Source: an uncultured Pelagibacteraceae bacterium
GTDB taxonomy: Bacteria; Pseudomonadota; Alphaproteobacteria; Pelagibacterales; Pelagibacteraceae
NCBI GenBank assembly: GCA_902603925.1
Contig: CACKWQ010000002.1
Span: forward strand, 1 to 64,000
Direction of reading: 5' to 3'
DNA: 64,000 nucleotides
Shown: positions 11,976 through 18,237 of the stretch, piece by piece
Position numbering within the stretch: position 1 is the stretch's first letter
How the letters are laid out: each line of letters opens with the position of its first letter
Notes under the pieces: generated by a model
What the model was told of the DNA's origin: nothing
Seen by the model: the letters and a program-made list of their open reading frames with translations, nothing else
Database searches by the model: none
Program-made: the position numbers and the translations under genes

Positions 11976-12024
11976 AGAACTTTTTAGGCAGTGATTCGGA
12001 CTATTTTTATCCTATTTTTGTTCT
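11976..12024 (+). promoter_or_regulatory. Candidate structured 5' leader of helicase gene
   Basis: Nested complementary arms AGAAC/GTTCT, TAGG/CCTA, AGT/ACT separated by U-rich internal loop. Confidence 0.35.
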
Positions 12025-12067: not shown

Positions 12068-14551
12068 ATGGTAGAAATGGAAAAAAATAAAATTACAGCA
12101 GTGTTAGGACCAACAAATACTGGAAAAACCTTTTTAGCAATTGAAACAATGCTTTCCTTTGAGAGTGGTATGATTGGTTTTCCTTTAAGATTGCTGGCAA
12201 GAGAAGTTTACGACAAGGTAATAAAAAAAGTTAATATAAATTTAGTCGCTCTTATTACTGGAGAAGAAAAAATAATTCCATCTAGTGCAAAATATTTTTT
12301 ATGCACAGTAGAGTCAATGCCGTTGAATAAGCATCTTGATTTTGTTGGGATAGACGAGATACAAATGTGCTCTGATCATGAGAGAGGACATATATTTACA
12401 CAAAGACTCTTATATTTAAGAGGCGAAAAACTTACTATGTTTATGGGCTCTAATACCATAAAAAATATAATTTCTAGTTTAAATGAAGATATAGAATTTA
12501 TAAATAAAGATAGATTATCTCAATTAACTTACAGCGGTTATAAAAAAATTTCACGTATCGAGAGGAAAAGTGCTGTCATAGCTTTTTCTGCTGAAGAAGT
12601 TTATGCAATTGCAGAACTCATTAGACGTCAAAAAGGTGGTGCTGCTATAGTTATGGGATCTTTGAGCCCAAAAACTAGGAATTCTCAAGTTGAGTTATAT
12701 CAATCAGGCGATGTTGACTATCTTGTTGCTACTGATGCAATTGGTATGGGAATTAATATGGACTTAGATCATATATATTTCTCAAACCTTAAAAAATTTG
12801 ATGGAAAAAAGCTTAGAAGATTAAATTTGTCAGAAATCGGTCAAATATCAGGTAGGGCAGGCAGATATTTAAACGATGGATCATTCGGTATTACGGGGGA
12901 ATGTAAAAATATTAACTCAGAAGAAATAGATTTACTTGAAAATCATAGATTTGAAGAGATAAGAACTTTGTTCTGGAGAAATTCTAATTTAGATTTTAGA
13001 AGTGTACAAACATTAATTCGGTCACTAGATGAAAAACCCTCAAAAAGTTGGTTAAGAAGAATTCATGAATGTGAAGACGAGAAAGTTTTAAAACATTTAG
13101 TAAAGGATAGTTCAATTAAAATTGGAGACGACAAAAAAGAAATAGAATTACTTTGGGAGTGTTGTCAAATCCCGGATTTTGTAAAAAAGACCTATGGTCA
13201 TCACTTTGAAATTGTAAGTAAAGTATTTCAGTTCTTGAGAGGTAAAAATGGTAAAATTCCAAATCAATATATGAAGGAGCAGTTAACAAGTTTAGATAAA
13301 TTAGACGGTAATGTAGACTCTATTTCGAACAGAATCGCAAATGTTAGAACATGGTCTTATGTATCAAATAAGGCTAATTGGGTAGAAAATCAAGATTATT
13401 GGGTTGAAAGAACTAAATATCTTGAAGACAAACTATCTGATAGACTTCATGAAGAATTAACAAAAAGTTTTATTGATAAAAGGGCGAGTGTTTTGGCTAG
13501 GGGATTAAAACAAGATATAAGTTTTGATACAAAAATTTTAGACGATGAGTCTGTAATTATTAATGAACAATTTATCGGTCGTTTAAAGGGACTAAAACTT
13601 GAATTGGATTTAAAAGTTGGAGCCTTAGACTCTGATGTAAAGTCACTTAAAAAAGCTGCAAGACAAAGTGTTACACCTGAAATTTTAAATAGAATAAATC
13701 AAATAACTAAAACCCAAAGTTTAGAACTTAATAATGATTGTAAAATTTATTGGAATAAAAACCCAATTGGTTTCATTATACCAGGGAAAGACTATTTAAG
13801 TCCTGAAATTAAGTTGATAATAGATGATATGGTTGAGTTCAATGATCAAAAAAAATTATTAGAGTTCCTTAATATTTGGTTAACAAAAAAAATAAATAAT
13901 GATTTAGAGTCTCTTCACAAATTAAAATTTATTAAAGATACAAACCCTCAAATAAGAGCATTAGCTTTTCAACTATATGAAAATAACGGTGTAATTAAGA
14001 GAGAAGTTGTACAAGAATTAGTCAAGAAACTATCACAAGATCAAAGGAGAGTACTAAGAGATATAGGAGTAAAGTTTGGAAGATACCATATTTTTTTGTA
14101 TAAATTATTCAAGCCTCAGGCAGTATCATTAAGAATTTTATTATGGAAAAATTACCATGAAAAATTCCTTAACCTTAAACCACCAACATTTGGATTAAAC
14201 TTTATAGAGGACAAGTTAGGTACAAATGAGAATTTCATGCTTTTATGCGGTTTTGAAAAATTTGATAGGTTCTTTGTGAGAATTGACATTTTAGAAAGAC
14301 TCTTTATTCATATAATAAAATCAAATGAGAAAAAAGAAAGTGAAATCAAAATAGTGCCAGAAATGTTAAATTTATTAGGTTGTAATAAAGAAAACTTTTT
14401 AAAACTAATTCATTTTATGAATTACAAATCCTTTGAAAAAAATAATGAAACATATTTTAAATACTCACCTAAAAAAATTAGTTTTAAAATTAAGTCCAAG
14501 AAAAGCTTAGATAATCCATTCAATATCTTAAATCAACTTAATATCAAGTAA
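12068..14551 (+). CDS. SUV3-like ATP-dependent RNA helicase
   Basis: GPTNTGKTFLAIE Walker A, VGIDEIQM (DExx), GSLSPKTR, ISGRAGRY motif VI; mitochondrial SUV3/alphaproteobacterial family. Confidence 0.9.
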   Translation: MVEMEKNKITAVLGPTNTGKTFLAIETMLSFESGMIGFPLRLLAREVYDKVIKKVNINLVALITGEEKIIPSSAKYFLCTVESMPLNKHLDFVGIDEIQMCSDHERGHIFTQRLLYLRGEKLTMFMGSNTIKNIISSLNEDIEFINKDRLSQLTYSGYKKISRIERKSAVIAFSAEEVYAIAELIRRQKGGAAIVMGSLSPKTRNSQVELYQSGDVDYLVATDAIGMGINMDLDHIYFSNLKKFDGKKLRRLNLSEIGQISGRAGRYLNDGSFGITGECKNINSEEIDLLENHRFEEIRTLFWRNSNLDFRSVQTLIRSLDEKPSKSWLRRIHECEDEKVLKHLVKDSSIKIGDDKKEIELLWECCQIPDFVKKTYGHHFEIVSKVFQFLRGKNGKIPNQYMKEQLTSLDKLDGNVDSISNRIANVRTWSYVSNKANWVENQDYWVERTKYLEDKLSDRLHEELTKSFIDKRASVLARGLKQDISFDTKILDDESVIINEQFIGRLKGLKLELDLKVGALDSDVKSLKKAARQSVTPEILNRINQITKTQSLELNNDCKIYWNKNPIGFIIPGKDYLSPEIKLIIDDMVEFNDQKKLLEFLNIWLTKKINNDLESLHKLKFIKDTNPQIRALAFQLYENNGVIKREVVQELVKKLSQDQRRVLRDIGVKFGRYHIFLYKLFKPQAVSLRILLWKNYHEKFLNLKPPTFGLNFIEDKLGTNENFMLLCGFEKFDRFFVRIDILERLFIHIIKSNEKKESEIKIVPEMLNLLGCNKENFLKLIHFMNYKSFEKNNETYFKYSPKKISFKIKSKKSLDNPFNILNQLNIK

Positions 14552-14976: not shown

Positions 14977-15299
14977 CCTATATTGTTAACGATAAATGTA
15001 TTAAATGTAAATTAATGGACTGTGTTGAGGTATGTCCAGTTGACTGTTTTTACGAGGGTAAAAATATGCTTGTAATTAAACCTGATGAGTGTATAGATTG
15101 TGGCGTTTGTGAGCCTGAATGTCCTGTAGACGCTATAGAACCAGACACAAATGAAGGAACAGATAAATGGGTAGAAATAAATACAAAGTATTCAGAAATT
15201 TGGCCGAACATAACACAAAAGAAAGACCCACCCAAAGATAACGAAAAATTCAGAGATGAAAAAAATAAATTTGATAAGTACTTTAAAGAAAACATTTAA
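14973..15299 (+). CDS. fdxA: 7Fe/2x[4Fe-4S]-type ferredoxin
   Basis: [21 protein letters not shown] and [16 protein letters not shown]. Confidence 0.95.
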
Positions 15300-16119
15300 A
15301 AAAAAATCAAAGGTTCCAAAATCAAAAAACCTAAAAAAAACAATTAAAAAAAACAATAACAAAGTTAAGGAGCCAAAAAAAATAGTTAAAATTAAAGAAA
15401 TTAAAAAAAAAAAGAAAAAGGTAGCTAAGTCTAATAAGAAAGAAAAAGCAAAGTTACAAGAAACCAATAATCAAAGTCTGAGACTAACTAAAAACATAAA
15501 TGATCAAAAGCCTGAAATAAAAAAAATTAAAAAACAGTCGTCAGAAAAGAGAATTTTTAAAATTAAAGATTATGTAGTTTATCCAAAACATGGTGTAGGT
15601 CAAATAACTGAATTTAAAAAAATAAATATTGGTGGAATTGATGTAGAGACATATGTTTTAAAATTCGAAAAAGATAAAGCTAATGGAATGATACCTGTTA
15701 ACAAACAATCTCATCTGAGACCTCTTGCAACAATTAATCAAGTAAATAAGTGTATTAGTATATTAAAGGGAAAACCAAAGATTAAAAGATCAATGTGGAG
15801 TAGAAGAGCACAAGAGTATGAGGCCAAGATTTCATCTGGAAAAATTTATGATCTAGCAGAAGTAGTCAGAGATTTGAATAAAGGCGATGATATAATGATT
15901 GATCAATCATATAGTGAGAGACAACTTTTTGAAAAGGCTTATGAAAGGTTATTGGCCGAATTTCAAATTATCTTAGGTATTGGATATGAGGCAACGCAGA
16001 AAAAATTAGATAAAGCACTTAAAAGAAATCTAGAAAATCAATCTCCTAAACAAGAGGTCAAGATAGAGGAGAAAACCGAAATTACTGGGGATCCTGAAGC
16101 ACCACAATCTATAGAATAA
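15256..16119 (+). CDS. carD: CarD-family transcriptional regulator with long Lys-rich N-terminal extension
   Basis: [24 protein letters not shown] core; ~95-aa N-terminal tract dominated by K; 44-nt overlap with fdxA. Confidence 0.88.
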
Positions 16120-16120
16120 A

Positions 16121-16162
16121 AAAAACGCTTCCCACGCAAGCGCCATGAGAAGCGTTATTTTT
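16121..16162. terminator. Bidirectional intrinsic terminator between carD and the basic micropeptide
   Basis: acgcttc(16125-16131)...gaagcgt(16149-16155) with A-run on one side and T-run on the other. Confidence 0.75.
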
Positions 16163-16179: not shown

Positions 16180-16251
16180 CTATCTTCTTCTTCTTTTCTT
16201 AGCCTTTTTAGCTTTCTTTTTCTTTTTAGCTTTTTTTCTTCTTTTAGCCAT
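16180..16251 (-). CDS. 23-aa polybasic micropeptide MAKRRKKAKKKKKAKKAKKRRRR
   Basis: ATG at 16251, preceded on minus strand by CAGGGAGCTAAAA (RBS), promoter-like TTGACA-N17-TAAAAA upstream, terminator downstream. Confidence 0.75.
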   Translation of the reverse strand: MAKRRKKAKKKKKAKKAKKRRRR

Positions 16252-16271
16252 TTTTAGCTCCCTGTTATTGT

Positions 16272-16290
16272 ACGAATCAAAATGATTCGT
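16272..16290. promoter_or_regulatory. Perfect 8-bp inverted repeat ACGAATCA-AAA-TGATTCGT in 5' region of polybasic micropeptide
   Basis: Direct inspection; lies between predicted -10 and RBS. Confidence 0.6.
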
Positions 16291-16300
16291 GATTTATTAA

Positions 16301-16329
16301 TTTTTATTTTTTTTAAAGACTTATGTCAA
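16301..16329 (-). promoter_or_regulatory. Sigma70-like promoter TTGACA-N17-TAAAAA
   Basis: Minus strand: TTGACA at 16329-16324, 17-nt spacer, TAAAAA at 16306-16301. Confidence 0.5.
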
Positions 16330-16429: not shown

Positions 16430-18145
16430 TTACAAATTTTTATAAAGTTTCTCAAAATTATTTTGGTAACTGTTAATAATTTTGAATCTTTTTAACTTAA
16501 GCGTTGGTGTTAACATTCCATTTTCAATTGAAAATTTTTCTTTTATTACGAAAAATTTTTTAATTTTTTCTATTTTTGCAAGTTTATTATTAATTTTTTC
16601 TATTTCTAATTCTATTTCATTTATTTCTTTTGTTTTTCCATTATCACTTAAAACTAATAATGCAACCAAGTACGGCTTATTATCGCCATAAACTAAAGCC
16701 TGCTCAAAATAACTTGAATTTGTTATTTCATTTTCAATTTTTAATGGTGATATGTTATCTCCACCAGGTGAAATTAATATGTCTTTTTTTCTATCTGTGA
16801 TTTTTAAATAATTTTCTTCAATAACACCTATGTCGCCTGTATGTAACCATCCATTTTTTAAAACTTTTTTTGTTTCAGAATCGTTATTCCAATATCCTAT
16901 CATTACATTTTCGCCTTTTACTAAAATTTCACCGTCTTCAGCTATGATTACTTTGTTTTCTTCAAATGGTGGACCGACTGTTTCTACTCTTATATCATTT
17001 ATTGGATTACAACTTACAACAGGCGATGTTTCAGTAAGACCATATCCTTGAAGTGTGGGAAGGCCTATTGCATTCAGGAAATGTCCTATTTTTTTATCTA
17101 AAGCTCCACCACCTGAAACAAAAGTCTTCAAACATCCGCCAAATTGGGACTTTATTTTTTTTCTTATTATAGTATCTAAGACTGCATCCTGAATTTTCTC
17201 AAGTATATTTAGTTTAATTTTTTTTATTTTCTTTGTACCTAATTCAACCATTCTGTTAATTAATAATTTTTTAACTCCTACATTTTTATTAAAACTTGAA
17301 CTAATTTTTTGATATAAATTTTGATAAAATCTTGGAACCGCTGTCATTATATGCGGTTTACAATCATTCATATTTTTTATTAGTTTTTCAATACTTTCAG
17401 CATAATATACTTTAGCTCCAAGACTAATCTGAACAAATTGAACAGTATGTTCATATGAATGGGAAAGTGGTAACCATGTTAAAAATCTTAAAGGCTCTTT
17501 GCTAGTTAGGTCTTTAAGAAGATTAATTGCACCATTACAGTTACTCAGAATGCCTCCATGACTAAGTACGACTCCCTTTGGGTTTCCTTGAGTGCCGGAT
17601 GTATAAATTATACATGCGGGATCTGACCTTAAAATTTTTGGAATAGAAAAATCATCTTTTGCTGGATTTTTTTTTTCAATCAAATCTTTAATATTTGAAA
17701 TTTCAAATTTATATTCTTTTTTCAGGGCATCAATTGAGTAAATTTTTTTTATAAAGTCTTTATTTTTAATAATATTTTTAATTTTATTCAATTGCTCTTC
17801 ATTTGAAATTATTATTATAGACGGACAACAATCGTCTATTATGTGTTCATAATCTTTTTGAGAATATGTAGTGTATGTTGGAACTGTTATTAAATTTGAA
17901 TACATTATTGCGATATCCATGATTAACCACTCAGGTCTATTTTCAGAAATTAATAAACATCTGTCTCCCTTTTTTGAAAAATTTTTTAAATTATTTGAAA
18001 TCAATACAATTGATTCTTTTACTTTTTCCCAAGTAAAACTATTTTTTTGATCTTTAAGACTTGTTAAAAAAACCTCATCTTTATTTTTTAATTTATATTG
18101 ATCATAAAACAGCTCAATTAAATTATTTAATTTTTTTAAATACAT
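16430..18145 (-). CDS. AMP-dependent long-chain acyl-CoA synthetase (start moved to MYLKKLNN, clear of tRNA-Leu)
   Basis: IIYTSGTQGNPKGVVLSH, GYGLTETSPVV, GWLHTGDIG motifs. Confidence 0.92.
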   Translation of the reverse strand: MYLKKLNNLIELFYDQYKLKNKDEVFLTSLKDQKNSFTWEKVKESIVLISNNLKNFSKKGDRCLLISENRPEWLIMDIAIMYSNLITVPTYTTYSQKDYEHIIDDCCPSIIIISNEEQLNKIKNIIKNKDFIKKIYSIDALKKEYKFEISNIKDLIEKKNPAKDDFSIPKILRSDPACIIYTSGTQGNPKGVVLSHGGILSNCNGAINLLKDLTSKEPLRFLTWLPLSHSYEHTVQFVQISLGAKVYYAESIEKLIKNMNDCKPHIMTAVPRFYQNLYQKISSSFNKNVGVKKLLINRMVELGTKKIKKIKLNILEKIQDAVLDTIIRKKIKSQFGGCLKTFVSGGGALDKKIGHFLNAIGLPTLQGYGLTETSPVVSCNPINDIRVETVGPPFEENKVIIAEDGEILVKGENVMIGYWNNDSETKKVLKNGWLHTGDIGVIEENYLKITDRKKDILISPGGDNISPLKIENEITNSSYFEQALVYGDNKPYLVALLVLSDNGKTKEINEIELEIEKINNKLAKIEKIKKFFVIKEKFSIENGMLTPTLKLKRFKIINSYQNNFEKLYKNL

Positions 18146-18150
18146 ATCAA

Positions 18151-18237
18151 TGGTGGGCAAAGAGAGAATCGAACTCTCACAGTATTACTACTATTGGATT
18201 TTGAGTCCAACGCGTCTACCAGTTCCGCCATTCGCCC
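18151..18237 (-). tRNA. tRNA-Leu(CAA), CCA encoded
   Basis: Reverse complement GGGCGAATGGCGGAACTGGTAGACGCG...TTGGA-CTCAAAA-TCCAA...GAGTTCGATTCTC...CCCACCA, long variable arm. Confidence 0.95.

Follow-up and report, generated by a model that had tools for sequence, protein, structure and literature searches.

The K/R/A gene and its neighbours

The window, the 64,000-nucleotide stretch of Pelagibacteraceae DNA analysed here, carries on its minus strand a 23-aa open reading frame (Table 1). Its translation, MAKRRKKAKKKKKAKKAKKRRRR followed by the stop, contains 18 Lys or Arg residues and four Ala residues, in agreement with the original prediction, which had also given this K/R/A gene a GGGAG ribosome binding site (RBS), a TTGACA-N17-TAAAAA promoter and a downstream intrinsic terminator. 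Each of these signals is present. The sequence (A)GGGAGCTAAAR-ATG precedes nearly all copies of the gene within the window's genus, and the terminator forms a strong hairpin with a 13-bp stem and a T run; in the 701-base stretch around the gene, three terminator-like sites were observed vs. 0.1 expected in shuffles. The mRNA is predicted to be about 175 nt long.

The gene is separated by 60 nt from the end of carD, with which it is convergent, and the terminator that lies between them can serve carD as well. On its other side, it begins 178 nt past the end of an acyl-CoA synthetase-like gene on the same strand. The polylysine arm that had been ascribed to the CarD protein corresponds to a Lys-rich stretch of residues 1 to about 97 (window 15256-15545). 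Similar N-terminal arms, 46-140 residues long and 31-50% K/R, occur throughout the SAR11 order (window carD, L142-L165, L196-L211) and are missing from almost every CarD sampled in other alphaproteobacterial families, with partial versions in L235 (72 aa) and L212 (28 aa). A link between the K/R/A gene and carD had been proposed from their arrangement; the shared position and the Lys-rich tracts in both products hold throughout the order, and a functional coupling would be a step beyond these two features.

Table 1. Positions of the K/R/A gene, its expression signals and the flanking genes in the window.
Feature	Position	Strand	Remark
K/R/A gene, 23 aa	16180..16251	-	ATG 16251-16249, stop TAG 16182-16180
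RBS, GGGAG	16258..16262	-	
Hairpin at predicted mRNA 5′ end	16271..16291	-	ACGAATCA-TTT-TGATTCGT
Second, mirrored heptamer, TGATTCG	16273-16279		
Heptamer, CGAATCA	16283..16289	-	Contains GAATC (GANTC, CcrM site); kept in every leader
Predicted transcription start	16292-16295		
-10 element, TAAAAA	16301..16306	-	N17 from TTGACA
-35 element, TTGACA	16324..16329	-	Exact in 117/117 distinct first-set leaders
Terminator hairpin	16124..16156		Common to K/R/A gene and carD
carD	15256..16119	+	Encodes a CdnL-type RNA polymerase-binding protein whose N-terminal arm is Lys-rich; convergent with the K/R/A gene in f1 and f2
AMP-binding acyl-CoA synthetase-like gene	16430..18160	-	Upstream same-strand neighbour, f1 only

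Conservation and selection

Relatives were sampled initially as a first set of 141 loci, fetched via carD or the DNA of the region, in which some genomes are present more than once. An orthologous ORF of 20-35 aa lies at the same position in 137 of these loci, and in the remaining four the contig runs out no more than about 170 nt from carD, so that conservation of the ORF at this position is far beyond chance. The first-set screen comprised 65 distinct DNA versions and 42 distinct peptides. A frame broken in relatives had been named in advance as evidence against the gene; instead, the K/R/A reading stays intact through the length changes, not only in the 137 first-set loci but also in the other genera of the window's family (f1, with named matches Pelagibacteraceae and Candidatus Pelagibacter) and in a sister family, f2. 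The ends of the peptide are more conserved than its middle, where the insertions and deletions fall.

In the window's own genus and the ten other f1 genera with readable sequence downstream of carD, a K/R/A gene of 19-58 aa adjoins carD convergently in all loci with enough downstream sequence. It lies between carD and the synthetase-like gene in the 20 f1 loci examined with long flanks, one of which, L161, breaks off within carD where its contig ends. The encoded peptides have 19-22 residues in g3, 20-24 in g2, g4, g6, g8, and g13, 20-32 in g5, 29-32 in g7, 29-41 in g9, and 34-58 in g12. Three loci in which the gene seemed absent do carry it; its start codon is GTG in one of them, and its RBS is of the AGAGAGG type in the other two. 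The copy in L153 (g6) has an intact leader and a frameshifted C-terminus (MAKRRKGGKKKKKAKKKKKKIVEFSLN...), reflecting either an assembly error or decay. A locus filed under g9, L270 (G060), is probably a contaminant contig, since its leader and peptide are of g1 type and its genome is listed with 6% contamination and has two carD copies.

The pattern of substitution is that of a real gene under selection. Among 71 distinct site changes, the third codon position accounts for 45, the second for 20 and the first for six; pN/pS is 0.32 in the 27-aa class and 0.42 in the 25-aa class, and the replacements in this comparison are exclusively K/R, A/K, K/T, and A/P. Codon use is unusually restricted, with Arg encoded by AGA in 99% of cases, Thr by ACT in 82% and Ala by GCT in 86%, vs. 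34% GCT in the window's long genes. The Ala codons of EF-Tu shift in the same direction but less (GCT 38-57%).

Promoter, CGAATCA heptamer and 5′ hairpin

All copies of the gene share a control region composed of TTGAC(A), a spacer of about 40 nt, CGAATCA, a 5′-terminal mRNA hairpin and a purine-rich RBS. The CcrM/GcrA-type motif and the hairpin had been missed in the original prediction. CGAATC is found in 117/117 distinct first-set leaders, 39-42 nt after TTGACA, and also in the other f1 genera and in f2; throughout both families, TTGAC is followed at 38-41 nt by CGAATCA. Across 31 genomes the pattern TTGACA-N26..40-CGAATCA occurs at most once per genome, and in the 22 genomes with a match it is recognisably the K/R/A leader each time. 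In other Alphaproteobacteria, a search for TTGAC-N-RCGAATCA gave mostly scattered matches without a K/R/A gene. In two such genomes (L293, L294) the pattern lies just upstream of genes reading as ftsZ and rpsM, which fits the GANTC promoters of growth and cell-cycle genes.

The reverse complement of the heptamer, TGATTCG, fits YGAKTCK, an extended GcrA consensus that was proposed for Caulobacter (PMC7987155). In that organism, promoters with methylated GANTC are bound by GcrA, which on the fully methylated ctrA P1 promoter leaves a footprint from -35 to +7 (PMC3667746). A CcrM homologue is present in SAR11 (PMC3973325). A CcrM-type N6 adenine methylase exceeded the family cut-off in 22 of 25 genomes, that of G206 matching Caulobacter CcrMI (6pbd) with an E-value of 7e-153; the window's own genome, which is 63% complete, gave no CcrM match. 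GcrA was found in 20 of 25 genomes, the window's own included. GcrA/CcrM control of the K/R/A gene is therefore plausible, given the GANTC/YGAKTCK heptamer at the promoter and the two proteins encoded in the order. The resemblance to Caulobacter-type GcrA/CcrM promoters extends to the sigma-70-type promoter, the conserved GANTC, the placement of a YGAKTCK-fitting heptamer at the predicted start and the presence of both regulator genes. Two features set the systems apart: Pelagibacter lacks a ctrA orthologue (PMC2877005), and in most genera the SAR11 heptamer doubles as part of an mRNA hairpin. Elsewhere in the window there is a further intergenic YGAKTCK site (TGATTCG, 11992-11998), 70 nt upstream of an 827-aa Suv3-like helicase ORF that starts at 12068.

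In most genera the heptamer itself is the first arm of the hairpin. Within the window's genus CGAATC and GATTCG are separated by a loop of 4 to 6 nt, a variation that speaks against a rigid paired operator. A shifted stem, ATCACTTAA/TTAAGTGAT, is found in g5, g7, g9, and g12; here 97% of cells pair and seven change on both sides, where shuffles gave 1.9 and slid controls 0 to 4. This co-variation supports a 5′ hairpin in a supportive rather than conclusive manner, because the rows are related. In the same four genera CGA sits outside the stem yet is invariant, suggesting separate constraints on the hairpin and the heptamer. Leaders of g7, g9, g12, and f2 (L154, L155, L157-L160, L196-L210) also have an upstream CTCC or CCTC placed to pair with the RBS, hinting at a possible translational autoregulation in these groups that would be absent in the window's genus. 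From the strong promoter and RBS, the codon restriction and the 5′ hairpin, we infer that the K/R/A gene is highly expressed.

The sister-family orthologue and wider distribution

In f2, a gene of 40-99 aa occupies the same place beside carD, and its product reads like a histone H1 tail (KKAAPKKKRKAAKRKPAKKK). It consists of low-complexity K/A/P/R repeats in variable number, with the composition of an H1 tail (MEELKVIFAKARKKAKKKAAPKKKRKAAKRKPAKKK...); another example is MEELKVIFAKARKKAKKKAAPKKKRKAAKRKPAKKKAAPKKKKRKAAKRKPAKKK...ARRKKRR. Two f2 loci (L200, L211) end at a contig boundary. The neighbours on the other side of the f2 gene, which read as CsaA-like and photolyase-like, differ from those in f1; despite this, orthology of the f1 and f2 genes is judged secure from their shared control region.

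A tree of the CarD core places f1 apart from f2 and the outgroups and does not resolve the base of f1. The longer forms, those of g7, g9, and g12, cluster, and these genera have in common with f2 the leader that could pair with the Shine-Dalgarno (SD) sequence, making it plausible that the peptide shrank toward the window's genus. A shrunken peptide is favoured, not proven, and the opposite direction, growth of the gene in f2, is also admissible.

The sequences flanking carD in 24 other alphaproteobacterial families showed no K/R/A gene, and IMG/VR contained no exact match to a pattern for the start of the gene that would point to phage carriage. A search for paralogues in the window's own genome, by DNA similarity only, gave other matches at the uS13/uS11 genes and at a 98-aa basic ORF. 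The uS11 of that genome (L241:708-1154), identified by reading the sequence, is extended at its N-terminus by about 35 Lys-rich residues. A FecR-domain protein (PF04773, E 2e-7 in L236), encoded in several genomes of the window's genus (L236-L240, L245), has a signal-peptide-like N-terminus and ends in an H1-tail-like stretch of KKKAKPKAKK repeats that is well over 100 residues long.

Function of the peptide

The original prediction took the peptide for a nucleic-acid-binding factor, with an H1 tail, a ribosome-bound Thx-like peptide or an RNA chaperone as models. Its H1-tail-like part has gained strong support, because the f2 orthologue of 40-99 aa has H1-tail composition, and its Thx-like part is weakened by the 19-99 aa length range and the lack of fixed non-basic residues. 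We consider it somewhat better than an even chance that the peptide is a minimal H1-tail-like nucleic-acid-coating peptide, a role favoured by the H1-tail make-up of its long orthologue. The gene, predicted to be transcribed on its own and found throughout the SAR11 order, would then encode a polycation that is the short orthologue of an H1-tail-like protein. To judge from its composition, this polycation is expected to be disordered. Most likely it would coat and neutralise nucleic acid, probably chromosomal DNA, alongside HU, which was found in 21/21 relatives tested. The contacts would be non-specific and electrostatic, made by evenly spread Lys and Arg with Ala as spacers, and the outcome might be aided compaction or tuned transcription, as with H1-type tails. 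The perfect -35 element, a GcrA/CcrM-type GANTC at about +4 and the 5′ hairpin of the mRNA would drive strong expression, which may be coupled to chromosome replication through GcrA and CcrM. A bolder version, a foldless "tail-only histone" of 19-58 aa made in step with replication under a methylation-dependent GcrA/CcrM promoter, is possible but doubtful.

Bacterial H1-like tails are known from AlgP and PhaF of Pseudomonas and from Hc1 and Hc2 of Chlamydia, and the SAR11 peptide resembles them in its low-complexity Lys/Ala(/Pro/Arg) composition and its repeat-like length variation. KPAA peptides of AlgP bind DNA (PMC9239181), and the length variation of Hc2 comes in Lys-rich pentamers (PMC2848022). 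The SAR11 sequences are likewise low in complexity, strongly basic and rich in Lys and Ala, lack a fold as judged from composition, and vary in repeat-like steps from 19 to 99 aa across the order. Unlike the known proteins, they have no N-terminal domain, are shorter (19-58 aa in f1, compared with 165 aa or more in Hc2 and 352 aa in AlgP) and come from a gene with a fixed position beside carD and an order-wide conserved leader. In Pfam and NCBIfam, neither the 23-aa peptide nor its orthologues of 34, 58, and 85 aa matched any family at E up to 1, and the 99-aa f2 form gave one irrelevant weak match. The likeness to H1 is thus one of composition and of the long orthologue, with homology to any known H1-like family unproven. 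The same properties of the peptide also suit an RNA- or ribosome-binding role.

The chief rival, which we regard as unlikely, is a lineage-specific ribosomal or ribosome-assembly peptide, an analogue of eL41, bTHX, bS22, or bL37 threaded into rRNA. Size and charge fit: the small basic ribosomal peptides have about 25 residues, mostly Lys and Arg, as in the 24-aa bL37 and the Arg/Lys-rich bS22/mS38 and eL41. They too are missed by annotation, and were overlooked until cryo-EM (PMC5876184, PMC6582356). Strong and apparently constitutive expression signals, and ends more conserved than the middle, would also suit such a peptide. Against it, the five-fold length range in repeat-like steps is unlike that of peptides held in rRNA pockets. 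Neither length nor register is fixed, conservation is confined to the ends, no non-basic residue is fixed beyond the start region, and aromatic or hydrophobic anchors are missing. The gene is also not among ribosomal genes, and its orthologues reach 99 aa. No PDB chain matched the 23-aa or 58-aa form at E up to 10, a comparison that has little power with short low-complexity queries.

A general polyanion counter-ion or RNA chaperone, which would neutralise RNA, polyphosphate or other polyanions in a polyamine-like manner with no chromosome-specific role, is quite improbable in our estimate. The peptide's composition would allow it, and AlgP, with its H1-like tail, associates with polyphosphate granules (PMC9239181), but the replication-linked promoter motif would then have no obvious purpose. 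A cationic antimicrobial or secreted peptide is very improbable. Pelagibacter is among the top three genera for candidate antimicrobial peptides in a global catalogue (6,675; PMC10491242), and the peptide is highly basic; however, it has no signal peptide and no hydrophobic or amphipathic face, the gene is kept in every genome, and its orthologue is a 99-aa H1-like protein. Scarcely credible is a last reading in which the opposite strand is conserved, as a 46-aa hydrophobic, membrane toxin-like ORF or a non-coding RNA, with the K/R peptide as its shadow. The two frames share third codon positions and so cannot be told apart by codon-position bias alone, and Rfam gave only sub-threshold matches, to rhtB (29 bits, cut-off 55) and a plasmid antisense RNA (26 bits, cut-off 56), but on the minus strand a start codon follows a purine-rich RBS in every case, and this frame holds a 40-99 aa protein in f2. 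The plus-strand 46-aa ORF was itself rejected, its start not being conserved and most relatives having no start codon in the open frame.

Significance for SAR11

No description of the K/R/A gene was found in the literature searched, and a study of SAR11 RNAs (Meyer et al., 2009) does not mention lysine-rich peptides or carD. The gene would best be filed as a variant among the H1-tail-like proteins, one cut down to the bare tail, fixed throughout an order and provided with an unusual, conserved control region. It falls below the usual limits of gene calling and its product would be destroyed by trypsin, so annotation and proteomics would tend to miss it.

In the ocean, SAR11 bacteria rank with the most abundant cells, and their genomes are extremely streamlined. 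A gene that all examined members of such a group have retained should matter to it. If the minimal H1-tail-like peptide does coat the chromosome, few architectural proteins of any cell would be smaller, and the peptide would illustrate the extent to which an H1-type tail can shrink while still under selection. Through the invariant GcrA/CcrM-type site, a connection of DNA methylation with a nucleoid component could be put to the test in bacteria that lack CtrA, and, if the tail-only histone proved true, it would be a bacterial parallel to replication-coupled histone supply.
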